20,886 bases of DNA from a virus. The stretch lies in IMG/VR virus record IMGVR_UViG_3300034355_001151, positions 1 through 20,886 of that record. One strand, given 5' to 3'. The position numbers and the translations under genes were made by a program. The notes below the pieces were generated by a model that saw only the letters and a program-made list of their open reading frames with translations, had not been told where the DNA came from and did not search any database. Positions 1,297 to 16,023 of the stretch are shown piece by piece (the stretch's first letter is position 1; each line of letters begins with the position of its first letter).

Positions 1297-1479
1297 TCAT
1301 ATTTTTGAAGATTGTTTAGGCTTCTCGTTGAACTCTTTTTCTGTATATTCTATGTCATTCAAATACCAATAACGATCACCATCAGGATATTCAACAGCAG
1401 GGCCATCTTCTCGGTGACGCAGATCGTTTAAATACCACTCACGATCACCATTATCAAAAACTTTTACTGTTTTTTTCAA
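1297..1479 (-). CDS. Short YwqK/MORN-like repeat protein, 60 aa, apparently frameshifted copy
   Basis: Last and smallest member of the HREDGPA repeat family here, with only one full repeat (HREDGPAVEYPDG) between two WYLN half-units. The shared C-terminal module ending LLGYxVKVVK is missing and replaced by KPKQSSKI. Paralogues begin ATG-ATT-GAA-TAT-ACA. Here a run of seven A residues puts the expected ATG out of frame, giving a 9-codon reading that ends in TGA. The body is open only from a TTG at 1479-1477, directly after the previous gene's stop and 8 nt from the GGTGG ribosome-binding sequence inside that gene. It could be a working gene with a TTG start or a decaying copy. Confidence 0.5.
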   Translation of the reverse strand: MKKTVKVFDNGDREWYLNDLRHREDGPAVEYPDGDRYWYLNDIEYTEKEFNEKPKQSSKI

Positions 1480-1854
1480 TCATTTTACCACCTTTACTGT
1501 ATAACCCAATAATGCTTCGATTTCTGCTACTGTTAGTTCTTTTACTTTAGAAGTCTTCTTAATGAATTCTTCTTCTGTATATTCTTCGCCGTTCAGATAC
1601 CAATAATGAGCGCCATGTGCATATTCAACAGCAGGACCATCTTCACGATGGAGATTGCCGTTGAGATACCACTCACGATTGCCATTTGCATATTCAATAG
1701 CAGGACCATCTTCTCGGTGATAATTGTCATTCAGATACCAATAACGATCACCATTTGCATATTCACAAGCAGGACCATCTTCTCTGTGGTATTTGCCATT
1801 CAGATGCCAAAAACGAGTACCATTATCATAGACTTTTACGGTGTATTCAATCAT
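1480..1854 (-). CDS. YwqK/MORN-like tandem-repeat protein, 124 aa
   Basis: Three 23-residue repeats of the form HREDGPAxEYxxGxxxWYLNGxx (residues about 20-90) follow an MIEYTVKVYDNGTRFWHLNG start and are closed by EYTEEEF and the common tail KELTVAEIEALLGYTVKVVK. Similar G-x-W-Y-x-N-G repeats occur in MORN_2/YwqK-type proteins and are expected to form successive beta-hairpins. The function here is unknown. The ATG at 1854 has a good ribosome-binding site (AGGAG, about 6 nt away) and its own promoter copy at 1886-1913. It is the only member besides the 4487 gene with an independent promoter. Its 3' end carries the GGTGG ribosome-binding site for the 1479 gene. Confidence 0.85.
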   Translation of the reverse strand: MIEYTVKVYDNGTRFWHLNGKYHREDGPACEYANGDRYWYLNDNYHREDGPAIEYANGNREWYLNGNLHREDGPAVEYAHGAHYWYLNGEEYTEEEFIKKTSKVKELTVAEIEALLGYTVKVVK

Positions 1855-1885
1855 TTCAATCTCCTAAAGTTCCAACCACAAGACT

Positions 1886-1913
1886 ATTTTACTACACTCT
1901 ACAGAAAAGTCAA
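1886..1913 (-). promoter_or_regulatory. Repeated early-type promoter cassette, copy 1
   Basis: Minus strand: -35 TTGACT (1908-1913), 16-nt spacer, -10 TAAAAT (1886-1891), followed by the conserved leader GTCTTGTGGTTGGAA. It drives the 1854 gene. The -35 end overlaps the stop region of the upstream gene (ends 1910). Confidence 0.8.
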
Positions 1914-2092
1914 GCGTTGAGAGGATGATAGGAAAAATGTCTTTCTAAGTTGTGTTCTTGTAAAAATTCTTCTAGTCCACGATCAATTATCTTCTTTAGG
2001 TCATCGTCTGAAAGAAGATCACCTATAGACTCACGAATCCGAGTCTTTAATTTTCCTTCAAAAGTTTCATTAGTTTGAATTTCATTGCTCAT
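1910..2092 (-). CDS. Hypothetical helical protein, 60 aa
   Basis: Unrecognised. The N-terminus is polar (MSNEIQTNETFEGKLKTR), followed by two helix-prone segments (IGDLLSDDDLKKIIDRGLEE and FLQEHNLERHF). No membrane segment is visible. The ATG at 2092 lies 11 nt inside the preceding gene. The gene closes the long transcription unit that starts at the 4521-4549 promoter, and its stop overlaps the -35 of the next promoter cassette. Confidence 0.7.
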   Translation of the reverse strand: MSNEIQTNETFEGKLKTRIRESIGDLLSDDDLKKIIDRGLEEFLQEHNLERHFSYHPLNA

Positions 2093-2504
2093 TATTTTTT
2101 ACTTCCTCATAATTCTCAGCATATTCAAAAATGTAATCAGGAAAATTATATCCTGCTTCTCTCAACATTGTAAGGGTGGAAAGTAATTCTTCTTTATCAA
2201 CCACATTAAAAATTTTTCCATCATACGCTAATCCAATATCCTTATATTCAGCATTTTCTTTTAACCAATTAACTCTTTTATTGCTAAGTAAAACATAATT
2301 TTGTACCCACCTATCTCGAGATTCTTTATCATTTTTATCAAGAAAATTAATCTCTCCCCAATCAGGAACTTTGGGAGCAAGATGTTCGTTAATTCTTTTT
2401 CTACGAGCAACCACAATCGTAACACCACCAGCACAATCATCATATATGTAGAGGTCACTTGTGTTATTATTAGGACATATTGTAGACCATCTACACCAAC
2501 TCAT
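2082..2504 (-). CDS. Hypothetical protein, 140 aa
   Basis: Unrecognised. The N-terminus has two Cys residues and several Asn (MSWCRWSTICPNNNTSDLY), followed by a beta-prone core (GGVTIVVARRK), a Trp-rich charged middle (DRWVQNYVLLSNKRVNWLKE) and a C-terminal acidic tail (FEYAENYEEVKNNEQ). The ATG at 2504 overlaps the stop of the preceding 43-aa gene in an ATGA junction. It sits in the same unit as the repeat-protein genes but contains no repeat itself. Confidence 0.75.
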   Translation of the reverse strand: MSWCRWSTICPNNNTSDLYIYDDCAGGVTIVVARRKRINEHLAPKVPDWGEINFLDKNDKESRDRWVQNYVLLSNKRVNWLKENAEYKDIGLAYDGKIFNVVDKEELLSTLTMLREAGYNFPDYIFEYAENYEEVKNNEQ

Positions 2505-2632
2505 TTCTCAAACCACCGTATTTTTGAATTGGTTTTTTCGTATTCTTCGACGATTTGGTCAAGAGTCCATGCTTCGTCTTGCCAGAAAACAAAATCTGCC
2601 TTTTCTGCTAATTCTCTAACTTTAGGATTCAT
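2501..2632 (-). CDS. Small hypothetical protein, 43 aa
   Basis: Short gene between the repeat-protein array and the 2504 gene. It encodes a charged helical peptide beginning MNPKVRELAEKADFVFWQDE and ending TNSKIRWFEK. ATGA overlaps at both ends (start inside the 3003-to-2629 gene's stop; stop inside the 2504 start) and a GGT-type ribosome-binding sequence in the upstream gene support it as real. No family is recognised. Confidence 0.65.
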   Translation of the reverse strand: MNPKVRELAEKADFVFWQDEAWTLDQIVEEYEKTNSKIRWFEK

Positions 2633-3003
2633 TTTACTACCTTTATCTGATAACCCAACAAAGATTCAATCTCTGCTACAGTGAGTTCTTTTGCCTTAAC
2701 AGTCTTCTTGTTGAATTCTTTTTTTGTATATTCTGCACCATTCAACCACCACTCACGAGTACCATCAGCATATTCAATAGCAGGACCATCTTCCCGGTGA
2801 CACTTGCCATTCAAATACCAAAAACGAGTACCATCAGCATTTTCAATAGCAGGACCATCTATCCGATGACGCTCGCCATTCAGATACCACTCACGAGTGC
2901 CACTTGAATATTCAACAGCAGGGCCATCTTCACGATGGCGCTCGCCATTCAACCACCACTCACGAGTGCCACTATCATATACTTGTACAGCGTATTCAAT
3001 CAT
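2629..3003 (-). CDS. YwqK/MORN-like tandem-repeat protein, 124 aa
   Basis: Family member with three repeats: HREDGPAVEY, HRIDGPAIEN and HREDGPAIEY, each followed by G-T-R-x-W-[WY]-L-N-G. It ends in EYTKKEF and the shared tail LTVAEIESLLGYQIKVVK. It differs from its neighbours in WWLNG units (Trp for Tyr). A 159-bp stretch of this gene (2702-2860) is identical to one in the 4047-to-3742 gene. ATG start with a 4-nt ATGA overlap with the preceding gene, whose last codons supply the ribosome-binding site. Confidence 0.85.
   Translation of the reverse strand: MIEYAVQVYDSGTREWWLNGERHREDGPAVEYSSGTREWYLNGERHRIDGPAIENADGTRFWYLNGKCHREDGPAIEYADGTREWWLNGAEYTKKEFNKKTVKAKELTVAEIESLLGYQIKVVK
2702..2860. 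repeat. 159-bp exact direct repeat, copy A
   Basis: Base-for-base identical to 3815-3973, an offset of 1113 bp. It covers the 3' part of the repeat domain plus the EYTKKEFNKKT segment of the gene. Identity at synonymous positions implies recent gene conversion or duplication. Confidence 0.9.
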
Positions 3004-3305
3004 TTTACCACCTTTACTGTATAACCTAATAATGCTTCAATGTCTGCTACAGTGAGTTCTTTTACTTTAGAAGTCTTCTTGAGAAATTCTTCTTCGGTAT
3101 AACCTGTATCATTCAAATACCACCAACGCCTACCACCAGCAAATTCAATGGCAGGACCATCCTCTCGATGGAGTTTGTCATTCAACCACCAAATACAAGT
3201 ACCATCAGCATATTCACAAGCAGGACCATCCTCTCTATGGAGTTTGCCATTCAACGTCCAACAACGATTACCATTATCAAAGACTTTTACTGTATATTCA
3301 ATCAT
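3000..3305 (-). CDS. YwqK/MORN-like tandem-repeat protein, 101 aa
   Basis: Family member with two repeats (HREDGPACEYADG, HREDGPAIEFAGG) flanked by WTLNG, WWLND and WYLND units, then EYTEEEF-like GYTEEEF and the tail LTVADIEALLGYTVKVVK. Start MIEYTVKVFDNGNRCW. ATG start overlapping the previous stop (ATGA) with AAGGTGG just upstream, inside the preceding gene. Expected to be a small beta-repeat protein in the cytoplasm. No enzymatic motif is visible. Confidence 0.85.
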   Translation of the reverse strand: MIEYTVKVFDNGNRCWTLNGKLHREDGPACEYADGTCIWWLNDKLHREDGPAIEFAGGRRWWYLNDTGYTEEEFLKKTSKVKELTVADIEALLGYTVKVVK

Positions 3306-3745
3306 TTTACCACCTTTATCTGATAACCCAATAATTTTTCGATCTCTGCTATTGTAAGTTCTTTTGTTTTGAAAGTCAACTTGAGAAATTCTTCTTCAGT
3401 ATATTCTACGTCGTTCAAATACCAATAACGACTACCATCAATATCTTCAATAGCAGGGCCATCTATCCGATGACGCTTGCCATTCAAATACCAACAACGA
3501 GCGCCATTGGCATATTCAATAGCAGGGCCATCTTCTCGGTGACGACAGTCATCCAAGTACCAACAACGAGTGCCAGTTGCATATTCAGAAGCGGGACCAT
3601 CTTCTCGGTGAAGATTGCCATTCAAATACCATTGACGAGTGCCATCAGCATCTTCAACCGCAGGACCATCTTCCCGATGGAGTTTGCCGTTGAGATACCA
3701 AAAACGGTCGCCCCTGTCAAGGACTTTTACTATATATTCTATCAC
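3302..3745 (-). CDS. YwqK/MORN-like tandem-repeat protein, 147 aa, GTG start
   Basis: Four repeats (HREDGPAVED, HREDGPASEY, HREDGPAIEY, HRIDGPAIED), one unit reading WYLDDCRHRED where others have WYLNGxxHRED. It ends in EYTEEEF and LTIAEIEKLLGYQIKVVK. The start is GTG (3745), in a GTGA overlap with the previous stop, where sisters have ATGA. The AAGGTGG ribosome-binding sequence is the same. Its N-terminal segment (MIEYIVKVLDRGDRFW) aligns with the other copies, so the GTG start is well supported. Confidence 0.85.
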   Translation of the reverse strand: MIEYIVKVLDRGDRFWYLNGKLHREDGPAVEDADGTRQWYLNGNLHREDGPASEYATGTRCWYLDDCRHREDGPAIEYANGARCWYLNGKRHRIDGPAIEDIDGSRYWYLNDVEYTEEEFLKLTFKTKELTIAEIEKLLGYQIKVVK

Positions 3746-4047
3746 TTTACCACCTTTACTTGATAACCCAGCAATGATTCAATTTCTGATACTGTTAGTT
3801 CTTTTACTTTAGCGGTCTTCTTGTTGAATTCTTTTTTTGTATATTCTGCACCATTCAACCACCACTCACGAGTACCATCAGCATATTCAATAGCAGGACC
3901 ATCTTCCCGGTGACACTTGCCATTCAAATACCAAAAACGAGTACCATCAGCATTTTCAATAGCAGGACCATCTTCACGATGGAGATTGCCATTCAAGTAC
4001 CAATAACGGTCGCCATAATTATTAACTTTTACTTTGTATTCAATCAT
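3742..4047 (-). CDS. YwqK/MORN-like tandem-repeat protein, 101 aa
   Basis: Two repeats (HREDGPAIENADG, HREDGPAIEYADG), then the WWLNGAEYTKKEF segment and tail LTVSEIESLLGYQVKVVK. Half of the gene is identical in DNA to part of the 3003-to-2629 gene (3815-3973), while the N-terminal codons (MIEYKVKVNNYGDRYW) differ. It therefore looks like a mosaic of family members. ATG start in an ATGA overlap with the 4487-to-4044 gene. Confidence 0.85.
   Translation of the reverse strand: MIEYKVKVNNYGDRYWYLNGNLHREDGPAIENADGTRFWYLNGKCHREDGPAIEYADGTREWWLNGAEYTKKEFNKKTAKVKELTVSEIESLLGYQVKVVK
3815..3973. repeat. 159-bp exact direct repeat, copy B
   Basis: Identical to 2702-2860. See that entry. The two copies lie in the same direction within different members of the repeat-protein gene array, so recombination between them would delete or duplicate 1113 bp (two to three genes). 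Confidence 0.9.
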
Positions 4048-4487
4048 TTTACCACCTTTACCGAATAACCCAATAATGCTTCAATCTCTGCTACTGTTAA
4101 TTCTTTTACTTTAAGGGTTTTCTTGTTGAATTCTTCTTCGGTATATTTTACACCGTTCAAAAACCAATAACGAGTACCGCCAGCAAATTCAATAGCGGGA
4201 CCATCTTCCCGATGACGCCTGCCATTCAAATACCAATGGAGAGTGCCACTTACATATTCAACAGCAGGACCGTCTTCTCTATGCAATTTACCGTTTAAAT
4301 ACCATTCAAGATCACCATTTGCATATTCAACAGCAGGACCGTCTTCTCTATGCAATTTACCGTTTAAATACCATTCAAGATCACCATTTGCATATTCAAC
4401 AGCAGGACCGTCTTCTCTATGCAATTTACCGTTTAAATACCAATAACGATCACCATTATCTTCAACTTTTACTGTATATTCAATCAC
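4044..4487 (-). CDS. YwqK/MORN-like tandem-repeat protein, 147 aa, lead gene of the array
   Basis: Four HREDGPA repeats, the first three nearly identical (HREDGPAVEYANGDLEWYLN), closed by KYTEEEF and LTVAEIEALLGYSVKVVK. I place the start at the GTG 4487-4485: it has AGGAG about 7 nt upstream and its context matches the ATG of the 1854 gene base for base. A longer reading to 4514 would start inside the conserved promoter leader. First gene of a unit of five overlapping repeat-protein genes plus three others (4487 to 1910). The internal 69-bp DNA repeats show recent expansion. Confidence 0.85.
   Translation of the reverse strand: MIEYTVKVEDNGDRYWYLNGKLHREDGPAVEYANGDLEWYLNGKLHREDGPAVEYANGDLEWYLNGKLHREDGPAVEYVSGTLHWYLNGRRHREDGPAIEFAGGTRYWFLNGVKYTEEEFNKKTLKVKELTVAEIEALLGYSVKVVK
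4261..4442. repeat. Perfect 69-bp tandem DNA repeat (2.6 copies)
   Basis: Units at 4261-4329 and 4330-4398 are identical, and a third matches for its first 44 bases (4399-4442). 69 bp equals one 23-residue protein repeat. The lack of synonymous change indicates very recent slippage or unequal recombination inside the gene. Confidence 0.9.
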
Positions 4488-4520
4488 TTCAATCTCCTGT
4501 AAAGTTCCAACCACAAGACT

Positions 4521-4549
4521 ATTTTGCTACAATTTACGAAAAAAGTCAA
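4521..4549 (-). promoter_or_regulatory. Repeated early-type promoter cassette, copy 2
   Basis: Minus strand: -35 TTGACT (4544-4549), 17-nt spacer, -10 CAAAAT (4521-4526), followed by the same leader (AGTCTTGTGGTTGGAAC) as copy 1. It is one base longer in the spacer and weaker in the -10 than the other copies. It drives the repeat-protein array from 4487. Confidence 0.75.
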
Positions 4550-4740
4550 CCGATCTCTTTAACACCGAGTCCGGCGAGGAATCCTTCGGTCCGTCCGGCG
4601 GTGTAACCTTCTTTGTAGATCATCTCACGGAAGGCATCACACCATTCTAGGAATTCAGAATAAGTGATCTTACCAACCTGGAGCTCACCATATACCTCTG
4701 CCGGTTGTTTGACTCTCATGACCAGATTTTGATAGTTCAT
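4546..4740 (-). CDS. Hypothetical protein, 64 aa
   Basis: Unrecognised small protein, MNYQNLVMRVKQPAEVYGEL, then a Trp/Tyr-containing helix (YSEFLEWCDAFREMIYKEGY) and a Gly-rich end (TAGRTEGFLAGLGVKEIG). The GY-x-x-G-x-x-E/D-G pattern recalls the 1229 and 7269 proteins. Last gene of the 6176-to-4546 unit. Its stop overlaps the -35 of the promoter cassette at 4521-4549. The start ATG is preceded by CAGG in a junction sequence duplicated upstream of the 4960 gene. Confidence 0.7.
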   Translation of the reverse strand: MNYQNLVMRVKQPAEVYGELQVGKITYSEFLEWCDAFREMIYKEGYTAGRTEGFLAGLGVKEIG

Positions 4741-4742
4741 GA

Positions 4743-4761
4743 TATTGTACCTGAATTTAAT
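4743..4761. repeat. Duplicated gene-junction sequence (with 4966-4984)
   Basis: 19 bp matching 4966-4984 with one mismatch. On the minus strand each copy gives the end of one gene (ISD or ISN codons, then TAA), ATTCAGG as a likely ribosome-binding site, and a short gap to the next ATG. It suggests that a gene-plus-junction unit was duplicated. Confidence 0.6.
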
Positions 4762-4960
4762 CTGATATCAATTCCAGTTCGGTGATTGAAAAATCAGGAC
4801 GTAAAAACTTTTTCTCTGCTTCCCTTTCTTCAAATGATTTCCAGAATAACATATCATTCATACGAAAATCAATATAGGTTTCTGCTAATTCTTTTGAAGC
4901 ATATACACCCATAATTTCGGGTTCATCGTCTTGGAGATACTTTACAAGATAAACTTTCAT
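4757..4960 (-). CDS. Hypothetical protein, 67 aa
   Basis: Unrecognised. Starts MKVYLVKYLQDDEPEIMGVY and continues with a charged helix (ASKELAETYIDFR) and DFSITELELISD. The beginning (short beta strand, acidic turn, VYASKELAE helix) is the layout common in short phage proteins of the type 'xxYxVxx...gvf.s.e.A..y', also seen in the 58-aa and 51-aa proteins at 6441 and 6912 in this window. No function can be inferred. Confidence 0.7.
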   Translation of the reverse strand: MKVYLVKYLQDDEPEIMGVYASKELAETYIDFRMNDMLFWKSFEEREAEKKFLRPDFSITELELISD

Positions 4961-5807: not shown

Positions 5808-6176
5808 TTATACTCCAAAAAATTTACGAACGTTGTCATTGGCGCAAGTAGCAGCGGCAGCTACCAGTTCTTCCCATTGTGGGAGTTTCTTGAGTTGGTA
5901 AACAGCATATCCGCGATAGCTGGGAGTGAATTGGCCAGATTGCCAATATAGTTCGCCGTTGATGGCGACATCAACCCGGTAGCCAGTGCCCGACAGGCAC
6001 TTCAGCATATCACGAATATGCAGGGGCATTTCGTGTTCGTGTTTAGGCTGTGGGGCCATAACGGGTTTGCCCATCATGGTTTGACGAACGGCGGGATCAA
6101 CCCAATGATCCCGATTGACCTTACCAGACAAGTGATCAGTCCAGCACTGGTTATTGTTTTCTCTAATATCGGCCAT
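5808..6176 (-). CDS. Hypothetical protein, 122 aa, in a GC-richer patch
   Basis: Unrecognised. The N-terminus is polar with Trp and His (NNNQCWTDHLSGKVNRDHWV), followed by an MMGKPVMAPQPKHEHEMP linker, a helix (HIRDMLKCLSGTGY), a strand pair (RVDVAINGELYWQSGQF) and a C-terminal helix (PQWEELVAAAATCANDN). ATG at 6176 with GGAGAC about 7 nt upstream. First gene below promoter copy 3. With the 5804 gene it forms a block richer in G+C than its surroundings, suggesting joint and recent acquisition. Confidence 0.75.
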   Translation of the reverse strand: MADIRENNNQCWTDHLSGKVNRDHWVDPAVRQTMMGKPVMAPQPKHEHEMPLHIRDMLKCLSGTGYRVDVAINGELYWQSGQFTPSYRGYAVYQLKKLPQWEELVAAAATCANDNVRKFFGV

Positions 6177-6211
6177 GTTTGTCTCCCTATCTCCGTTTGA
6201 ATTTAGAAACT

Positions 6212-6239
6212 ATTTTACTACAATCTACAGAAAAGTCAA
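6212..6239 (-). promoter_or_regulatory. Repeated early-type promoter cassette, copy 3
   Basis: Minus strand: -35 TTGACT (6234-6239), 16-nt spacer identical to that of the 6728-6755 copy, -10 TAAAAT (6212-6217). The leader after the -10 diverges (AGTTTCTAAATTC) from the other copies. Serves the six-gene unit 6176 to 4546. Confidence 0.8.
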
Positions 6240-6264
6240 GAGGAACGAACAAGCAACATTATAT

Positions 6265-6441
6265 TCACTTCTTATATAGACTCTTCAAACATTCATTATC
6301 GGACAAATGACATTCATACCCTTTTTCTTCCATCAACTCCCGATAATCACAAGCATCAAAAAATTTAGTAAACTTCTTCCGTTCTACTAATACCGGATCA
6401 GTATCCGCTGATAGCTCCCAAGTATATACTTCATAGGTCAT
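6265..6441 (-). CDS. Hypothetical protein, 58 aa
   Basis: Unrecognised small protein starting MTYEVYTWELSADTDPVLVE, with a central helix (FFDACDYRELMEEKG) and a Lys-rich end. Three in-frame ATG/GTG-type starts lie close together. I choose the ATG at 6441 because GGAG lies 7 nt before it, whereas the ATG at 6447 is only 2 nt from that site. The last codons of the upstream gene provide the site. Short 'strand, then F/A-helix' layout as in its neighbours. Confidence 0.65.
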   Translation of the reverse strand: MTYEVYTWELSADTDPVLVERKKFTKFFDACDYRELMEEKGYECHLSDNECLKSLYKK

Positions 6442-6443
6442 TT

Positions 6444-6695
6444 TCATTCTCCAAAAAACCATGCCTGATAGTAGGAAGTACGATCAGGAGACACACTGGT
6501 AATCTTCCAATTACATTCCTCACAGAATGCAACGGCTTCTTCCTTGGTCGAAAATGCGTGAAGGCTAAAATCATCAGTGTTATCTGCGACGATTGCCCAC
6601 AACAATTCTCCTATGTCCTTGTTATGATCTATATGGACTGAGAAGTCCGGTTTGCTAATGATTTTGATTGCTTCTATATAAGTTTCTTCTAACAT
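6444..6695 (-). CDS. Hypothetical protein, 83 aa
   Basis: Unrecognised. Starts MLEETYIEAIKIISKPDFSV, then an acidic middle (DIGELLWAIVADNTDDFSL) and a segment HAFSTKEEAVAFCEECNW of the type 'aFsTkEEAvaFce', common in small phage proteins with an alpha/beta hairpin. A GTG 12 nt upstream is in frame, but it overlaps the GGAG ribosome-binding site, so the ATG at 6695 is preferred (6-nt spacing). First gene of its unit, below promoter copy 4. Confidence 0.7.
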   Translation of the reverse strand: MLEETYIEAIKIISKPDFSVHIDHNKDIGELLWAIVADNTDDFSLHAFSTKEEAVAFCEECNWKITSVSPDRTSYYQAWFFGE

Positions 6696-6727
6696 TTCAG
6701 TCTCCACGTTTTTCTAACCACAAGACT

Positions 6728-6755
6728 ATTTTACTACAATCTACAGAAAAGTCAA
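6728..6755 (-). promoter_or_regulatory. Repeated early-type promoter cassette, copy 4
   Basis: Minus strand: -35 TTGACT (6750-6755), 16-nt spacer, -10 TAAAAT (6728-6733), then the shared leader GTCTTGTGGTTAGAAAAACG and GGAGAC ribosome-binding site. It drives the 6695 gene. The -35 touches the stop codon of the 51-aa gene upstream. Confidence 0.85.
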
Positions 6756-6756
6756 G

Positions 6757-6912
6757 TCAAAAAGAACTAACAAACTGACCAATATGGACTTCGTATTCCC
6801 TCGATTTCGGTATTTTGTTAAAATATTTTTGCGCTTCCTCAAGCGTCGAAAAATACTCTAACACCTGTTCAATTTCTTGACCTCGCCAAAGTTTATATAC
6901 ACAATATTCCAT
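6757..6912 (-). CDS. Small hypothetical protein, 51 aa
   Basis: Encodes MEYCVYKLWRGQEIEQVLEY followed by a short helix (FSTLEEAQKYFNKI) and EYEVHIGQFVSSF, stop TGA at 6757-6759. It has its own promoter copy (6945-6972) and GGAG 7 nt before the ATG at 6912, within the same leader sequence as the 6695 gene. The 'Y-strand, F-S-T-x-E-E-A helix' pattern matches other small proteins here. Function unknown; being a gene is well supported by the signals. Confidence 0.75.
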   Translation of the reverse strand: MEYCVYKLWRGQEIEQVLEYFSTLEEAQKYFNKIPKSREYEVHIGQFVSSF

Positions 6913-6944
6913 CTTTGTCTCCACGTTTTTCTAACCACAAGACT

Positions 6945-6972
6945 ATTTTACTACACCTTTCAGAAAAGTCAA
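6945..6972 (-). promoter_or_regulatory. Repeated early-type promoter cassette, copy 5
   Basis: Minus strand: -35 TTGACT (6967-6972), 16-nt spacer, -10 TAAAAT (6945-6950), then GTCTTGTGGTTAGAAAAACG, identical to copy 4 through the ribosome-binding site. It serves the single 51-aa gene. Confidence 0.85.
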
Positions 6973-6975
6973 GCG

Positions 6976-7269
6976 TTAATTATCAAAATCTACGCTATCA
7001 AAACACTGTCTGATTTCAATAGAAGCATCACAAACACCAGAAACATATCCTTTCCAATAATAATCTTTCATCATTTCCTCGTCTTCCAAAACACCATCAC
7101 ATCTGCCCCTCACTGCTTGATAACATTCTTGAATAATCAATTCAGCAAACTTTTCCACTTGCGGATAATAAGTAGAATCTACTATTCCGTCACCAAACTC
7201 ACCGGCGTGTTCATTGAGTATAATATCCAGTCCAGATTGCCTGGTAAATTCAGCAATTTTTTCGTTCAT
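6976..7269 (-). CDS. Conserved-type phage hypothetical protein, 97 aa
   Basis: Starts MNEKIAEFTRQSGLDI and includes VEKFAELIIQECYQAVRGRC, a pattern (FAELI-x-x-E-C) I know from many small phage proteins of unknown function. A second helix carries GVLEDEEMMKDYYWKGYVSG. No catalytic residues can be named. The ATG at 7269 is preceded by a GGAGAA ribosome-binding site. It is the last gene of the 8229-to-6976 unit. Confidence 0.75.
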   Translation of the reverse strand: MNEKIAEFTRQSGLDIILNEHAGEFGDGIVDSTYYPQVEKFAELIIQECYQAVRGRCDGVLEDEEMMKDYYWKGYVSGVCDASIEIRQCFDSVDFDN

Positions 7270-8263: not shown

Positions 8264-8292
8264 ATTGTATCTGACCTTTTATTATTTGTCAA
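8264..8292 (-). promoter_or_regulatory. Consensus-like sigma70 promoter
   Basis: Minus strand: -35 TTGACA (8287-8292), 17-nt spacer, -10 TACAAT (8264-8269), 35 nt before the ATG at 8229 and just downstream of the terminator at 8305-8331. Not a copy of the repeated cassette. It starts the 8229-to-6976 unit. Confidence 0.85.
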
Positions 8293-8304
8293 GCGATGGA
8301 TATG

Positions 8305-8331
8305 AAAAGGGCGATAAATTATCGCCCTTTT
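8305..8331 (-). terminator. Intrinsic terminator, copy 1 (after HNH gene)
   Basis: Stem AAAAGGGCGAT / ATCGCCCTTTT with a 5-nt AT loop, symmetric so it can act on both strands. It lies 3 nt after the HNH gene stop. It forms part of a 48-bp sequence (8305-8352) repeated exactly at 9250-9297. Confidence 0.85.
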
Positions 8332-8352
8332 TCGTTATTCAGAAGTGATTAT
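8305..8352. repeat. 48-bp direct repeat, copy 1, flanking the HNH cassette
   Basis: Exact match to 9250-9297 (945-bp offset). It contains the terminator plus 18 nt that encode the last residues of the HNH protein (IITSE, stop), whereas at copy 2 the same bases contain the glycosyltransferase stop codon in another frame. Hallmark of a terminator duplicated on insertion. Confidence 0.9.
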
Positions 8353-9159
8353 CCAATCCTTGAATGATTCAATTTTTCCTCTCAACAAGGAACCAATCCG
8401 ATATTGTTGCCATTTAGCCGCCTTTATGTTGTCAACGAATTGATCTCTGGTTCCAACAAAAACTTCTTCAGTTACAGTGTTTTTCAGAGTAAAAACTGTT
8501 AAATCTATACAATATCCAAAATGATTTTTTCTCATTCCACCCGATTGTCCAATTTTCCCACACACCGGACACGTTACTATTTGCTTGCTTGGGTTTAGGT
8601 CTCCCATTTTTGATATGCTGCATTTTTTTCTATTTTCATCAGATCGCTTGGCTCCCTTCCAATAAATTCTTGCTCTCTCTTTTGCATACTCGGAACACTT
8701 TTTCCCATACATCGGATTATTTTCTCCTGTATGCTTTTCTTTCATGTATTCAGAATGCAAATTGGCAGCTCTTACACGCAATTCAGCAACTTCTCTTAAC
8801 ATTTCCGGAGACAAATCTTCTTCATATATTCGTTGATGTCTATGATCTTGTTTGTTGAGCATTCTCACCAAAGCCGCAGAAAGTTTTCGTTCGGATTGAG
8901 TTTTTTTGCAGAATTTTACTAGCAATACGTGAGCTATTAAATGCTCATAGGCAGTTAGCCACACTTTGTTCGCCAAAGAATTATCACCGCCTATACACGT
9001 TGGTATAATATGATGATGTTCACAATATCCTAGAGCTTGTTTGGCCGTTTTTCTCGGAGAATCTTGCGATACTCTAATGATTGCATTTGATATGAGAGTG
9101 AAGTACTCATTGTAAGCCTCGTTTTTAACGAAGTCATTATGTTCGTGATAAATATTCAT
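8335..9159 (-). CDS. HNH homing endonuclease with NUMOD3 motifs, 274 aa
   Basis: HNH core at residues 46-82: CEHHHIIPTCIGGDNSLAN, with further His at 73 and 77, giving the H-H...N...H metal-binding nuclease signature. NUMOD3-type DNA-binding motifs follow (GENNPMYGKK about 145-154, GDLNPSK about 186-192). A likely zinc site is C197-x2-C200 with H213 and C217. The C-terminal region (FVGTRDQFVDNIKAA ... LLRGKIESFKDWI) fits a NUMOD1/IENR1-like helix-turn-helix. Such proteins cut DNA site-specifically and spread their own gene. It is free-standing here rather than in an intron, and lies between two copies of the glycosyltransferase terminator. ATG at 9159 with AAGGAG 8 nt upstream, inside a small hairpin. 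Confidence 0.93.
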   Translation of the reverse strand: MNIYHEHNDFVKNEAYNEYFTLISNAIIRVSQDSPRKTAKQALGYCEHHHIIPTCIGGDNSLANKVWLTAYEHLIAHVLLVKFCKKTQSERKLSAALVRMLNKQDHRHQRIYEEDLSPEMLREVAELRVRAANLHSEYMKEKHTGENNPMYGKKCSEYAKERARIYWKGAKRSDENRKKCSISKMGDLNPSKQIVTCPVCGKIGQSGGMRKNHFGYCIDLTVFTLKNTVTEEVFVGTRDQFVDNIKAAKWQQYRIGSLLRGKIESFKDWIITSE

Positions 9160-9166
9160 GCTGATT

Positions 9167-9188
9167 GCTCCTTAATAGCGATTAGAGC
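9167..9188 (-). promoter_or_regulatory. Small hairpin covering the HNH ribosome-binding site
   Basis: On the minus strand, GCTCTAAT can pair with ATTA-AG-GAGC (8 base pairs, 2-nt bulge, 4-nt loop). The second arm contains the AAGGAG ribosome-binding site of the HNH gene, so translation could be dampened. The stem is short and its effect uncertain. Confidence 0.4.
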
Positions 9189-9221
9189 CAGTGGGTGTAC
9201 CATCACCGCGACTGACATTAT

Positions 9222-9229
9222 TATTTATC
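9222..9229 (-). promoter_or_regulatory. Possible late promoter (GATAAATA) for HNH gene
   Basis: GATAAATA on the minus strand, one mismatch from the T4 late motif TATAAATA, 63 nt before the HNH ATG in a 90-nt gap lacking a sigma70 promoter. The terminator copy at 9250-9276 isolates the gene from upstream transcription, so a promoter in this gap is expected. Confidence 0.4.
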
Positions 9230-9249
9230 AATGTAATAAATTGATGTGA

Positions 9250-9276
9250 AAAAGGGCGATAAATTATCGCCCTTTT
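9250..9276 (-). terminator. Intrinsic terminator, copy 2 (after glycosyltransferase)
   Basis: Same AAAAGGGCGAT / ATCGCCCTTTT stem as at 8305-8331, with its T-rich tract, 17 nt after the glycosyltransferase stop. It is probably the original terminator from which the HNH-linked copy derives. Confidence 0.85.
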
Positions 9277-9297
9277 TCGTTATTCAGAAGTGATTAT
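9250..9297. repeat. 48-bp direct repeat, copy 2, flanking the HNH cassette
   Basis: Exact match to 8305-8352. It includes the stop codon of the glycosyltransferase gene (TAA at 9294-9296 read on the minus strand) and the terminator. Confidence 0.9.
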
Positions 9298-10196
9298 GCT
9301 TCTTTCTTCTTTTTGGCTGCTGCCTTCTTTTTTGGCTTGGACTCAACCGAAGGAGGAGGTGCTGCTCGCTCTTCGCTAATGGAGGTAGGTGCTTGTGGCG
9401 TATGTGTCGGCACCTGAGTGGCCTCGTTTGCTGTCTGTTCATTTGCATAAATCAGATGCAAATCTTTATATACTTGATGTTGCGCTTGATAGTCAAATAC
9501 ATAGGTACCGGAGTGGCGAAGTAGAACTCTCTTATCTACCCACACTTTACCACCAATATCTCTCCAATATTCTGAGAATGCCCAGTCCTCGGAGTAGAAC
9601 CTACCTTCGCGAACAGGGGTATCAAAATATGTCTTCATATATTGATTTAGTTCAGGTGGTAGACCAATGTCATTATTGAATGGTTTAACCATAGGGTGAC
9701 TGTTTAGCTTCTCAAATACATGACGCTTGATTAGCATAAATCCTGTTCCAGTTTTAGATACTTCTTGAAGCCCATCTGGGCCTTCTTCGGCCCCTTCAAA
9801 ACCATTTACACACCACTTTACCGGAATAGACTTCATTGGATATAGACCACCGATAATATCAACATCACGACATAACATAACCATAAGATGCCATGGTTCC
9901 CAGCCGATGTCACTATCTACGAACATCAAGTGTGTCGCGTCGCTATTAGCAAGAAATTTAGCACTTAGTGTATTTCTTGCACGAGTAATCAATGATTCAT
10001 TTGTCATTGTTTCAAGAGTCCAATCAATGCCCAATTGACGCGCTGCGTTGGCCCACTTGATATAGGACATGAAAGTTGATTCAGTTAGCATTCCACCGTA
10101 ACATGGCATCGCAAAAGCAACTTTCGTTCCCCTTAAATAATCAACATTTACTTGAATTTGACCTTGATTGTTTTGTTCTTGTGTTTGTTCTGTCAT
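9294..10196 (-). CDS. Family 2-like (GT-A) glycosyltransferase, 300 aa
   Basis: GT-A features: a first strand VAFAMPCYGG (residues 26-35), the segment ESLITRARNTLSAKFL, and the metal/nucleotide-sugar DxD motif in MFVDSDIGWEPWH (D94, D96). Then come DVDIIGGLYPMK, the acceptor-region KTGTGFMLIKR and the late EDWAFSEYWRDIGG that supplies the catalytic acid in such folds. It would transfer a sugar from a nucleotide donor, perhaps to phage DNA, a virion protein or a host surface glycan; the target cannot be told. The C-terminus is a low-complexity Pro/Thr linker and a Lys/Ala tail (KPKKKAAAKKKKEA). It lies downstream of a nucleotidyltransferase, a plausible functional pair. ATG with AAGAGG about 8 nt upstream. 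Confidence 0.85.
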   Translation of the reverse strand: MTEQTQEQNNQGQIQVNVDYLRGTKVAFAMPCYGGMLTESTFMSYIKWANAARQLGIDWTLETMTNESLITRARNTLSAKFLANSDATHLMFVDSDIGWEPWHLMVMLCRDVDIIGGLYPMKSIPVKWCVNGFEGAEEGPDGLQEVSKTGTGFMLIKRHVFEKLNSHPMVKPFNNDIGLPPELNQYMKTYFDTPVREGRFYSEDWAFSEYWRDIGGKVWVDKRVLLRHSGTYVFDYQAQHQVYKDLHLIYANEQTANEATQVPTHTPQAPTSISEERAAPPPSVESKPKKKAAAKKKKEA

Positions 10197-11751: not shown

Positions 11752-13758
11752 TTACATATCAATCAGTAATTGTTCTGAAACAGAATCATTCACTGTAAAT
11801 TCAATCTTATCATCAATCACGTCGGCAATCAGTGAACAATTTGATAGGCGTTCAAATAAGATTTTTTTACTCAATGGAATCTTCACTAATTCATCAATCT
11901 TTCTGGAGATGGGTCTGGCTCCTAATTTTGAGTCAAATCCCTTTTCTGCCAGTAAATCAATAGTCGCCTCGCTAAGAGTTAGCTTGATATTCTTATCATT
12001 AAGTGAATCTTGTAGAACCTTGATGAATTTCAACACTACCTTCTTTATAGCCAACTTGTCTAACTTAGTAAATTTACAAACACAATCTATTCTGTTCCGA
12101 AGTTCTGGCTTAAAGAAGTCCTTCATCGCCTTGTCTTCTTGCCCAGTTTTTTCCAATTGAGTACCAAAGCCGATATTATTTAGCTCATTATCTCTTGCGC
12201 CTAGATTGGATGTCATGATAATGATTGTATTTTTTAGGCTAATGGTTTTACCATTGCTTGAAGTAATTCTTGCATCATCCAGCATTTGTAACATGATATT
12301 CAACACATCTGGGTGAGCTTTTTCAACTTCGTCAAACAAAATAATACTGTATGGATTTTTGCTAACATCCGATATTAGTTTGCCTCCCCCTACTTGTCCG
12401 TCATCAAATCCAACATATCCAGGTGGTGAACCAATTAGGCTTGAAACATTGAATTTTTCCTGATATTCGCTCATATCATACCGAAGAAGCGGCATATCAA
12501 GATGTTCAGAAAGCAGTTTGGCTAATTCTGTTTTGCCGCACCCAGAAGGGCCGGTAAACAAAAAGCTCGCAATCGGTTTTGTCAGAGTTCCTAATCCACT
12601 GAAGTTAATGTAAATCCGTTCAAGAACACTGTTAACCGCTTCTTCTTGGCCATATAGCTTTTGCTTAATATTATCTTCAAGGTCAACAATTCTTTCAGTG
12701 GGTTCATTCTGAAGCCTGTCTACTGGAATTGATGTCAGCTTGCTTAGTTGAGAGATAATTTTTTCTCTATCTACAATGACATTGGATACGTCGTGTGCTC
12801 GTTCGTACGCGCAAGCGCCGTCTAATACATCAATTGAACGATCTGGGTTATGCCTATCATGAATATATCGGCTACCCATTTCAACGGCTGCATCAATTGC
12901 TTCACCATCAATCATAACACCATGGAATAGTGCTAATCTAGGTGCAAGTCCGCGTAAGATTTCTTTTGTTGTTTCTTGATTTGGTTCGTCAATAGCCACT
13001 CTTTGGAATCTACGCATCAATGCCCTATCTTTTTCAAATGATTCGTAAAATTCTTCCCATGTCGTAGAGGCAATCACTTTAAGTGTTCCCTTGGTAATTG
13101 CTGGTTTAAGCATATTGGCGAAGTCTAAGCTGGAACTTGATCCAGAACCGGCTCCTCTCATAGTATGAGCCTCGTCAATAAAAAGAATGGCATCTTCTTT
13201 TGTTTCTAAAGCAGAAATTACTTGCTTGAATTTTTCCTCAAAATCACCACGATATTTTGATCCTGCCACCAATGTGCCAATTTCCAATGACCACACTTGA
13301 TGATTTTTTATAAATTCTGGCACTTCGTCGTTAGCAATTTTTTGAGCTAATCCCTCAACTATTGCCGTATTATGATGGTATATTCCGCTTGGTGTACAAT
13401 ACTTATGAGGGAAAGGCAACGATACGTCATAGACTTCTTGTTCGCCTAAATTTTCTACTTTAACTATTTTTAGTGATCCTTGTTTACTGTCCACCTGCGA
13501 TGTATCAGATATGAGAACAGGATTTTCATTGTCAAATACAACGTGTTTGGTTGAACAAGTCAAAGTATTACCATCGTGAAAATAATATTTCGCAACATCA
13601 TGCTTTTTCTTCACAAATGCTAAGATTGGCTCAGAAGAGTTGGGTGCGGCAATCTTGATATTATGATTGATAGTAACCGGAGATTCATACGGGATATCAT
13701 CTATTCCCAAAATGTTAAATAATTTTTTAATCGGTATGTCAAATGTTTTCGTGGTCAT
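11752..13758 (-). CDS. clpA: Split-intein C-fragment fused to C-terminal part of ClpA unfoldase, 668 aa
   Basis: Residues 1-130 are the intein C-fragment: block B-like CSTKHVVF (S69, H72), block F EVYDVSLPFPHKY and the C-terminal GIYHHN. Thr131 starts the C-extein TAIVEGLAQKI, the direct continuation of the broken P-loop. ClpA features follow: Walker B1 ILFIDEAH (191-198), arginine region RRFQRV, Walker A2 GPSGCGKT (403-410), pore/sensor segments GSPPGYVGFDDGQVGGG, Walker B2 ILFDEVEKAH (473-482), IGF tripeptide (529-531) in the loop where E. coli ClpA has IGL for ClpP binding, and GARPISR near the end (sensor 2). After trans-splicing to the 16023 product, this gives a 747-residue two-ring unfoldase, close to E. 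coli ClpA (758). ATG at 13758 with AAGGAG 9 nt upstream, inside the endonuclease gene (20-nt overlap). Confidence 0.95.
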   Translation of the reverse strand: MTTKTFDIPIKKLFNILGIDDIPYESPVTINHNIKIAAPNSSEPILAFVKKKHDVAKYYFHDGNTLTCSTKHVVFDNENPVLISDTSQVDSKQGSLKIVKVENLGEQEVYDVSLPFPHKYCTPSGIYHHNTAIVEGLAQKIANDEVPEFIKNHQVWSLEIGTLVAGSKYRGDFEEKFKQVISALETKEDAILFIDEAHTMRGAGSGSSSSLDFANMLKPAITKGTLKVIASTTWEEFYESFEKDRALMRRFQRVAIDEPNQETTKEILRGLAPRLALFHGVMIDGEAIDAAVEMGSRYIHDRHNPDRSIDVLDGACAYERAHDVSNVIVDREKIISQLSKLTSIPVDRLQNEPTERIVDLEDNIKQKLYGQEEAVNSVLERIYINFSGLGTLTKPIASFLFTGPSGCGKTELAKLLSEHLDMPLLRYDMSEYQEKFNVSSLIGSPPGYVGFDDGQVGGGKLISDVSKNPYSIILFDEVEKAHPDVLNIMLQMLDDARITSSNGKTISLKNTIIIMTSNLGARDNELNNIGFGTQLEKTGQEDKAMKDFFKPELRNRIDCVCKFTKLDKLAIKKVVLKFIKVLQDSLNDKNIKLTLSEATIDLLAEKGFDSKLGARPISRKIDELVKIPLSKKILFERLSNCSLIADVIDDKIEFTVNDSVSEQLLIDM

Positions 13759-15238
13759 AAATAAGAAACTCCTTACATTTATTAATTTCTGCTATTGGAT
13801 CAATGCTAACATCATGAGACCATACTGTCAACACTTTAAACCCTAACGATTCAATGATTTGAATTCGCTCTTTATCATTTTGATGGATTTGTTCTATAGA
13901 TATTTTTAAGCTAGGGTGGATATCGGTGACCTCAAAAAGTCTGTTATCGCCATGCCAATAACTTCCATGATATTCTATTATTTTGTTTTCCATTTTAAAA
14001 TCCACAAAGTAAATGCCATTCTCGTGTGATATTATCCACTCTCTTGATTTTGCGCCATGAACTGTTTTTTTGGCAATGTCATCCGGCAAAGTCAAATCTA
14101 ACATCATGAAAAAATCTCTGGATTCTCTTGAAATGGATACGTTTGCACTATGATATGATTTGCGTATGGCAACTGCTTTTTCATATCCACGAGAATCCAC
14201 CAATTCCATGAACGTTCTTCCCTTTGATTTATTGATTGCCTCGCGTTCTTCTTCACTATGAGCCATCCAAGTATTTAATCGTTCTCCCATCATTTTTTCG
14301 TACCTACGTGTACCCTCTATATTGCCGTATCTGCGAACGAAATACTCATGATCTCTGGATTGAATTTTTTTAATAATATCACGAGAATCATCCATTGAAA
14401 AACCTTTCTTAATCCAAAAATCCAATGAGCGAGGAGACGGTTCCCCACGAATCACATCGGCTGCAAATTGACTGCTTCTCTTTTGGAAAATTTTTTGCTG
14501 AGTTTTGGCAAATTCAATGTCGTATCCTTTTGATATCCAATATTCAAGTGTATTGGGAAAATTTTTATAGGCACAATCACTGAGTACTCGATTTTTGGCG
14601 CTCTTTATAGAGTGTCCATTATCTATTCCAAATCTCGCTACACAATAATCCAATGAATAATGGTGGCTATTTAAAACTGTGTTTAATCTATTCAATAATG
14701 ATTCCGAAGAATGTTCTCGCGAATTTAAAATATCTACTAAAATACTTGTAGCATATACTGTCTTTGATTCAGGAATAGTATTAAATATTATGTCAAGTTC
14801 ATTCAATATCTCGTCCGACAAATTCTTTTTCAATCTATTCTTTACGTCTTTTTTATTCAAAAAACGATTTCTTGCGTAATCTTCATTTATAGTTGATTTC
14901 ATCTTGTCAACTTTGCCGTAGAATTTTCTTTTTCCACTTTTCTCGCCAAATAATACAGTAAATCTTTCTAATGATCCGGGTTTCAGTGAATGCAATTCAT
15001 TGAATTTAGTAAATAATTCATTTTCAGAATATCCGGTCATCAGCAGATTACATAATGTTGTTATTTGAGTTCCCGACGGGGGTTTATCATAGACCTCCAT
15101 AAATTCCCCCATAAATTTTTCTACTTTAAAGATAGTATCTGTTGGTAAAAAATTTTCAGAAGCCGATAAAAACTTTTTAACCGAAGAAATCTCATGAAAT
15201 TTACTTGCTCGCTGTTTGGGGGTCAGTTTGGGATTCAT
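13739..15238 (-). CDS. Vsr-like (EDxHD-type) homing endonuclease between split-clpA halves, 499 aa
   Basis: C-terminal nuclease region, residues 395-480: D413 in YFVDFK, E422-Y-H424-G, W428-H429, D455 and G466-F-K-V-L-x-V-W473-x-H-D476. This resembles very-short-patch-repair (Vsr) type nucleases and the endonuclease family reported with fractured split-intein genes (Dassa et al. 2009). Residues 60-345 contain repeated DNA-binding-like units such as LEYWISKGYDIEFAKTQQK and LDFWIKKGFSMDDSRDIIKK. It would cut intein-free clpA alleles and drive copying of the whole insert. The gene lies exactly between the intein halves, its 3' end carrying the ribosome-binding site and start of the clpA C-part. 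The ATG at 15238 has AGG 7 nt upstream in a hairpin arm. Confidence 0.88.
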   Translation of the reverse strand: MNPKLTPKQRASKFHEISSVKKFLSASENFLPTDTIFKVEKFMGEFMEVYDKPPSGTQITTLCNLLMTGYSENELFTKFNELHSLKPGSLERFTVLFGEKSGKRKFYGKVDKMKSTINEDYARNRFLNKKDVKNRLKKNLSDEILNELDIIFNTIPESKTVYATSILVDILNSREHSSESLLNRLNTVLNSHHYSLDYCVARFGIDNGHSIKSAKNRVLSDCAYKNFPNTLEYWISKGYDIEFAKTQQKIFQKRSSQFAADVIRGEPSPRSLDFWIKKGFSMDDSRDIIKKIQSRDHEYFVRRYGNIEGTRRYEKMMGERLNTWMAHSEEEREAINKSKGRTFMELVDSRGYEKAVAIRKSYHSANVSISRESRDFFMMLDLTLPDDIAKKTVHGAKSREWIISHENGIYFVDFKMENKIIEYHGSYWHGDNRLFEVTDIHPSLKISIEQIHQNDKERIQIIESLGFKVLTVWSHDVSIDPIAEINKCKEFLIYDHENI

Positions 15239-15240
15239 AA

Positions 15241-15295
15241 TTCAACCTATATGTTTAGTATATTATATTTATACTTAAAGAACATATAGGTTGAA
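15241..15295 (-). promoter_or_regulatory. RBS-sequestering hairpin upstream of homing endonuclease
   Basis: Perfect 15-bp inverted repeat, TTCAACCTATATGTT (15241-15255) and AACATATAGGTTGAA (15281-15295), 25-nt loop. On the minus-strand RNA the downstream arm holds the AGG ribosome-binding site (15248-15246) of the endonuclease ATG at 15238. Read-through RNA from clpA would fold and hide it. No U-run follows, so it is not a normal terminator. Confidence 0.85.
15266..15273 (-). promoter_or_regulatory. T4-type late promoter TATAAATA inside the hairpin loop
   Basis: Exact TATAAATA on the minus strand within the loop of the 15241-15295 hairpin. With T4 spacing, transcription would start near 15260, after the upstream arm, giving an RNA with a free ribosome-binding site for the endonuclease. 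Confidence 0.75.
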
Positions 15296-15303
15296 TTTTA
15301 GGA

Positions 15304-16023
15304 TTAAATCTCAAACTCTTGTAGTTGCAACAATTGCTCTTCTGATAACGTTGATATATCAATTTCTACACGAACAATCTCTTCTGAACCCAAGCACTTA
15401 CCGCAACCTGGTTCCCCGACGAGTAACACGTTCGCCTTAAATCGTCTTGCCAACACAGTGATCATTTCGTCTAATTCCCCCGAACGACCAATCAATGGCT
15501 CAAGTTTGTTCTTATCTGCAAGGGCGGTTAATTCAACACAATATTCTTCAAGGATTTCTTGAGCTTGCGTATCAGTTACCTTTACAGCATCTTGCTTATA
15601 ATTCTTTTGCCAATGTGATATAAACTCTTGCTTAGTGAATCCGTGCTTTAGCATGAAGTAATGCGAATGGCTATTAGTTTCTGCCAATAATGCAAGATAT
15701 AAATCTAATGTAGTGGCTGATCTTCTACCAGTAAACAATACTTGAGTTAATGCTCTATTAAAGCATCGTTCAAGCGCATTAGTCTTTTTTGGTTGATAGC
15801 TGCTATTTGATCCGGCATAGGGTGCAATAGTATCAAGATAGGAATCAATCTCACTATCAATGTTGTCAATGTCTACACCGTATTCAGCAGATAGTTTTCT
15901 AAATGGCGCATGTCTGATAAGCGATAAAAGCATATGCTCGGTCAGAACATATTCATGATCCTTTTCTTTTGCTAATTTTACTGCTTGTTCAATGATTGTA
16001 CTGATTTCTGGATTATGGTTCAT
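15304..16023 (-). CDS. clpA: N-terminal part of ClpA fused to short split-intein N-fragment, 239 aa
   Basis: Residues 1-145 form a Clp N-domain-like region (EHMLLSLIRHAPFRKL; ALTQVLFTGRRSATTLDLYL). ELTALADKNKLEPLIGRSGE then leads into the first AAA+ ring. The extein stops at LLVGEPGCGK (209), i.e. Walker A up to its Lys. Cys210 begins the intein N-fragment CLGSEEIVRVEIDISTLSEE and ten more residues (codons 15307-15396), ending at TAA. The fragment has eight acidic residues and one Arg. Residues 1-209 alone lack a complete P-loop and cannot bind ATP normally, so splicing with the 13758 product is needed. The gene follows dnaJ after a 54-nt gap. Confidence 0.95.
   Translation of the reverse strand: MNHNPEISTIIEQAVKLAKEKDHEYVLTEHMLLSLIRHAPFRKLSAEYGVDIDNIDSEIDSYLDTIAPYAGSNSSYQPKKTNALERCFNRALTQVLFTGRRSATTLDLYLALLAETNSHSHYFMLKHGFTKQEFISHWQKNYKQDAVKVTDTQAQEILEEYCVELTALADKNKLEPLIGRSGELDEMITVLARRFKANVLLVGEPGCGKCLGSEEIVRVEIDISTLSEEQLLQLQEFEI

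Follow-up and report, generated by a model that had tools for sequence, protein, structure and literature searches.

In the 20,886 nucleotides analyzed here (the window, which is the entire IMG/VR virus record IMGVR_UViG_3300034355_001151), the gene of the ClpA unfoldase is very probably fractured by an intein. The proposed element is an atypically split class-1 intein inserted between Lys209 and the following threonine of the first Walker A motif (D1 module), with its endonuclease encoded by a separate gene between the two halves. As judged from sequence comparison, neither the exteins nor the catalytic positions of the intein show damage, the element is inserted precisely, and an allele without it is known.

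A clpA gene interrupted within its first P-loop

Three consecutive open reading frames (ORFs) are found on the minus strand: 16023..15304 (239 residues), 15238..13739 (499 residues) and 13758..11752 (668 residues; Table 1). The first encodes ClpA residues 1-209, up to VGEPGCGK, followed by Cys210, 29 further residues and a TAA stop. The last begins with 130 residues ending in YHHN and continues with TAIVEGLAQ, so that clpA is broken after Lys209, between the Lys and Thr of GEPGCGK/T (the slash marks the break). Joined, the exteins amount to 209 + 538 = 747 residues. A previous sequence-only reading had described this arrangement, with a Cys-started 30-residue tail after GEPGCGK, 130 residues running to HHN before TAIVEGLAQ, intact frames and a 747-residue product, and the ORFs agree with it throughout. 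Its insert of 1.5 kb has to be corrected: the complete insert (15396..13369) comprises 2,028 bp, including the N-terminal intein part (IntN), a spacer, the endonuclease gene and the C-terminal intein part (IntC), and about 1.5 kb corresponds to the endonuclease ORF alone. This ORF and the start of the C half overlap by 20 bp.

By its domain content, the split protein is ClpA rather than ClpB: it has a Clp_N domain, two AAA+ modules without the ClpB middle domain, an IGF/IGL loop and a length of 747 residues. The NCBIfam ClpA model is covered at positions 4-220 by the N half and 219-728 by the C half. The second Walker A motif (GPSGCGKT, D2 module) is located at 12552..12529 in the C-extein, and the IGF loop, of the kind that docks ClpP, at 12174..12163, both on the minus strand; 74 of 80 relatives share the latter motif.

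These relatives are the best 80 IMG/VR matches to the C half, each compared with all parts of the locus. None carries the intein. Both sides of the site are visible in 78, with clpA uninterrupted in every one; the other two (L020 and L028) begin within or at the C part. One of the 78 is L001, a 7-kb contig with a precise empty site, a DNA identity of 96-97% to the window, and ClpA about 99% identical overall (99.5% in the N half and 99.3% in the C half). On these figures, L001 is nearly the same phage. Removal of 15396..13369 from the window yields a 48-nt junction which is present letter for letter in L001. Because of this exact junction, and because nine other viral contigs are cut at the same point, the interruption of clpA is real and chance is excluded in practice.

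The window and L001 show no difference from -45 to +429 of the insertion point while their outer flanks diverge by several percent, and we thus infer that the insertion into, or loss from, clpA is recent. Co-conversion of divergent donor flanks was considered and left no trace near the site. The same uninterrupted identity bears on the possibility that the fractured locus was joined to an unrelated clpA during assembly. The sequence does originate from a metagenome contig, but the insert falls exactly between codons, it is flanked by sequence identical to L001, and the fractured layout recurs in nine other contigs, which makes a chimera extremely improbable. It is also very unlikely that a decaying clpA, having lost its function, merely tolerates the insertion. 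A 20.9-kb fragment leaves room for another clpA copy elsewhere, but all three frames are open, clpA codon differences from L001 are mostly silent (38 synonymous and 5 non-synonymous), and ClpA is widespread among the 24 genomes of a comparable group of large phages from aquatic habitats (PMC12619734).

A putative split intein with a short N-terminal part

The window intein has the class-1 catalytic residues: Cys1, the block B histidine, a block F VYD...H, the penultimate histidine, the terminal asparagine and a threonine at +1. In an alignment of six IntC sequences (A1), L13, K51, H72, V109-Y110-D111, H118, Y120, G125, H129 and N130 are shared. A profile search of the PDB with this alignment retrieved solved inteins, namely Pho RadA (1.5e-7), CatC (2.7e-6), DnaE, gp41-1 (0.0016) and VidaL (0.013). 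The nearest sequence found is a mini-intein, contiguous and located in the small subunit of the clamp loader of a 484-kb huge phage (LR756508; 32.5% identity over 163 residues, E 8e-23), where it occupies the P-loop at GTGK/T. With an IntN of 30 residues and an IntC of 130, the predicted split point lies near the N-terminal end of the intein, which is an atypical layout.

Several observations weigh against this assignment. In block B (TxxH), His72 is retained in all six sequences and the threonine at -3 is not, the window having STKH and its relatives GSKH or DENH. The Pfam model Intein_splicing (PF14890) scores 17.9 bits against a cut-off of 35.8, a cut-off which is an annotation threshold and not a biochemical criterion, and the NCBIfam intein models give no match. 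The AlphaFold model of the isolated IntC is poor (pLDDT, the predicted local confidence, 36) and unusable as a structure. Lastly, splicing itself is something we infer. A pattern search of IMG/VR for near relatives of the window IntC returned none; alignment A1 was too divergent to serve as a scan query, and a loose HN-T pattern search in the large relatives gave background matches only.

On balance, the best-supported reading is that the first Walker A motif holds a trans-splicing split intein, because the catalytic residues are in place, profiles match solved inteins, a precise intein-less allele exists and the architecture recurs. The split intein proposed by the sequence-only reading is thus supported; the atypical split, the recurrence in clpA and clpC genes and the hairpin before the endonuclease gene described below are additions to it. 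Phage enzymes split by endonuclease genes can also function as separate chains (PMC2988022), and the two ClpA halves might associate non-covalently without splicing, as does the genes-in-pieces NrdA of Aeh1 after mobE insertion, the intein ends being relics. This is highly improbable here: with the break between the Lys and Thr of the P-loop, such an assembly would need to rebuild the P-loop itself, and the catalytic residues are retained across inteins which are merely ~25-35% identical.

According to the trans-splicing mechanism, each half would be translated on its own, with AAGGAG serving as the ribosome site of the C half. IntN would then dock on IntC, followed by an acyl shift from Cys210, attack by Thr+1 and cyclization of Asn130. 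The exteins would be joined as ...GEPGCGK-TAIVEGLA..., giving a 747-residue ClpA in which the first P-loop is formed only after splicing.

The endonuclease gene and its hairpin

Matches of the 499-residue protein to hidden Markov models are weak and comprise Vsr (E 0.0047), DUF559 and one PHROG endonuclease. Its AlphaFold model is usable in the C-terminal catalytic domain only (pLDDT ~70-83 across most of it). Foldseek aligned this domain with I-Bth0305I (3r3p; probability 1.00, TM-score 0.71 normalized by target) and with Vsr (1cw0, 0.95; 1vsr, 0.97), so the modelled domain resembles the I-Bth0305I/Vsr type. Against this, the E-values of the fold matches are 0.09-0.27 and the model was built on an alignment of three sequences. 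D413, E422, H429 and D455 are conserved, and the relatives have in common Y/F-W-x-x-K/R-G repeats and a D...E-Y-x-G...H...D pattern.

Related endonuclease genes sit between the halves of gp41 in Vibrio phage vB_VmeM-32, of an SbcC-like gene (L086) and of uvsX in Pseudomonas phages of the Paride group. In the cultured Pseudomonas phage Paride (L127, 2600-5645), uvsX is fractured within its Walker A motif (GESG/SGKS). Its IntN is short and begins with Cys, the halves are separated by an endonuclease gene, and a hairpin lies at the start site of that gene; the existing annotation lists no more than two UvsX-like genes and one hypothetical protein here. In vB_VmeM-32, uvsX is fractured too (L084, 733-2700), with a SegG-like gene between its halves, and adjoins the fractured gp41.

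Directly before the window endonuclease gene lie the two arms of a perfect 17-bp inverted repeat, separated by a 25-nt loop; the stretch has a folding energy of -23.2 kcal/mol (z -7.4). When 111 ORF starts from the window and its relatives were ranked, this hairpin came first (z -9.2), and the top eleven include five endonuclease genes of fractured loci. Comparable hairpins are found at the starts of sense-strand endonuclease genes, namely those of vB_VmeM-32 gp41 (z -6.8), L086 (-5.5), L120 (-4.0) and Paride uvsX (-4.0); none was seen at L113. From its position, the hairpin would make the ribosome site inaccessible when the endonuclease gene is part of a read-through mRNA. In T4 I-TevI and segB and in Aeh1 mobE, such hairpins are combined with a late promoter positioned so that late transcripts cannot fold them (PMC2988022). 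The loop contains TATAAATA, and a promoter located there is a guess which the counts weigh against: the window has a single copy where 1.8 would be expected, and the regions upstream of genes in the relatives show no enrichment of the motif. A T4-type late promoter was accordingly set aside and the motif remains a mere hint.

If these features act together, the hairpin would silence the endonuclease gene in transcripts reading through clpA, and expression would come only from transcripts starting within the loop. The enzyme would cleave empty clpA alleles in phages infecting the same cell, at the P-loop codons of the insertion site or close to them, and repair would copy the element in. The element would persist because it is seldom lost precisely and because strong conservation keeps the site from escaping cleavage.

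Table 1. Features of the fractured clpA locus (window coordinates)
Feature	Position	Strand	Basis
ClpA N half (Clp_N domain, start of D1 AAA+, IntN tail), 239 aa	15304..16023	-	Clp_N Pfam 41.5 bits; NCBIfam ClpA positions 4-220
N-extein, ClpA residues 1-209, ending GEPGCGK	15397..16023	-	99.5% identity to contiguous ClpA of L001
Putative IntN, CLGSEEIVRVEIDISTLSEEQLLQLQEFEI then stop, 30 aa	15304..15396	-	Not in L001; IntN+IntC align with the contiguous intein in the LR756508 clamp loader (E 8e-23)
Perfect inverted repeat of 17 bp (arms 15239-15255, 15281-15297); the RNA hairpin encloses the endonuclease gene's Shine-Dalgarno-like AGG	15239..15297	-	z -7.4; strongest of 111 ORF starts
TATAAATA within the loop of the hairpin; perhaps a promoter element (late-type or -10)	15266..15273	-	Sole window copy, 1.8 expected; weak
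Free-standing endonuclease gene, 499 aa	13739..15238	-	Vsr E 0.0047; kin between other fractured genes; modelled catalytic domain
Predicted C-terminal catalytic domain of endonuclease (residues ~400-495), Vsr/I-Bth0305I-like	13754..14041	-	AlphaFold confidence ~70-83 in most of domain; Foldseek
AAGGAG, Shine-Dalgarno of C half, within endonuclease ORF	13769..13774	-	Sequence
ClpA C half (IntC, remainder of D1, D2), 668 aa	11752..13758	-	ORF; Pfam and NCBIfam searches
Putative IntC, 130 aa, ending GIYHHN	13369..13758	-	Alignment A1; PDB profile search (Pho RadA intein 1.5e-7, DnaE, gp41-1, VidaL)
C-extein from TAIVEGLAQ, 538 aa	11752..13368	-	99.3% identity to L001

Recurrence of fractured clp genes

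Viral contigs were scanned with the patterns GEPGxGK-Cys and His-Asn-TA[IV]xEGLA, chance and contiguous matches being set aside. Nine further contigs cut a clp gene at the same K/T position of D1, the gene being of the ClpA type in two (L112 and L116) and ClpC-like in seven (L092, L113, L115, L117, L118, L119 and L120). Across the fractured clp contigs, IntN has 24-35 residues and IntC ~115-160. The halves are separated by an endonuclease gene in the window, L112, L113, L116 and L120. This gene is antisense in L112 and L116, and it is disrupted in L113 and in the first of the two L112 gaps; L092, L115, L117 and L119 have none. Two of the pattern matches, L088 and L091, were chance reading-frame matches. 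The clpA of Pseudomonas phage Paride resembled an intein match at first, but is contiguous.

In L112, ClpA is distributed over three ORFs (4068-4778, ClpA-N; 5842-7197, D1; 8272-9459, D2). Each of its two Walker A motifs is interrupted by a split intein, and both gaps hold an endonuclease gene in antisense orientation. The two inteins are 41% identical and form a single clade with that of L116 (support 100/98). A ClpS-like gene lies immediately upstream of the three-piece ClpA. The intein tree contains about three clp lineages, namely the window intein near the clamp-loader intein (weakly placed), L112 with L116, and the ClpC group; the P-loop has therefore probably been occupied more than once.

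The same scan over one genome per species for 84,980 bacterial and archaeal species gave only three matches (Planctomycetia, Thiotrichaceae and Thiorhodospira), all of them contiguous, Ala1-starting and at the same site. Contiguous, endonuclease-sized, Ala-started inteins (class 3-like) occupy this Walker A site in ClpB-type genes of bacteria and one virus (L103, L104, L105 and L097). In L118 (1-1894), the D1-fractured clpC has, in addition, a cysteine directly after the D2 Walker A motif (GPTGVGK/CFCSDTK...) and the contig ends inside, so that a second intein in D2 is likely. In L113 (5214-11002), the next gene after the fractured clpC-like one, that of IMP dehydrogenase, is fractured as well and has an endonuclease gene of its own.

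Other features of the window

A second endonuclease-gene polymorphism distinguishes the window from L001. At 8335-9159, a free-standing HNH/NUMOD3 endonuclease gene is flanked on each side by a copy of one terminator-like repeat (8305-8331 and 9248-9278); L001 is without ~944 bp in this region and has a single repeat copy. An array of small paralogous genes made of WYLNGxxHREDGPA repeats occupies 1297-4514 on the minus strand.

Significance and comparison with known systems

The fractured state recurs in 10 contigs and about three intein lineages, and is thus no single curiosity: the unfoldase of the Clp protease joins the genes that phages appear to build by protein trans-splicing. With its filled and empty alleles, the locus provides a natural pair on which homing could readily be tested, and the element offers new split inteins with a short N part for protein ligation. 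In the three-piece ClpA, two sister split inteins must pair correctly within one protein, which constitutes a natural test of intein orthogonality. A bolder proposal, which we consider unlikely, is that Clp P-loops are a preferred home of split inteins in large phages and that dependence on splicing provides viral proteolysis with a switch responding to timing or conditions, the element being no mere parasite; if true, the switch would cover both ATPase rings in L112.

Fractured genes, in which split intein halves surround a free-standing endonuclease gene of the Vsr-like or EDxHD type, were reportedly described by Dassa in 2009, and their hosts are said to include helicase gp41, ribonucleotide reductases, IMP dehydrogenase and terminase. 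The window element has the same arrangement of halves around a free-standing endonuclease gene, with an enzyme that may be of this type, and differs in its clpA host. Literature searches, which did not cover the founding fractured-gene paper and InBase, found no report of a Clp gene fractured in this way, of repeated cases or of a ClpA in three pieces. This agrees with the sequence-only reading, which knew of no case in phage clpA. The kind of system is already known.

As in PolB16 OarG (PMC10189870), VidaL and AceL-TerL, the window intein combines a short IntN with a long IntC; its IntN is longer (30 residues, against 15 in PolB16 and ~15-25 in atypically split inteins generally; PMC12707363) and its extein is another one. 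The clamp-loader mini-intein of LR756508, the nearest in sequence, occupies the same GK/T position of a P-loop, but it is a single chain without endonuclease in a different AAA+ protein. The gp41 locus of vB_VmeM-32 has the same order of N half, endonuclease and C half, overlapping ORFs and a start-site hairpin, with a helicase as host gene. Similarly, T4 I-TevI and segB and Aeh1 mobE have their endonuclease ribosome site hidden by a hairpin in read-through RNA (PMC2988022), whereas in the window the promoter inside the loop is only suggested.
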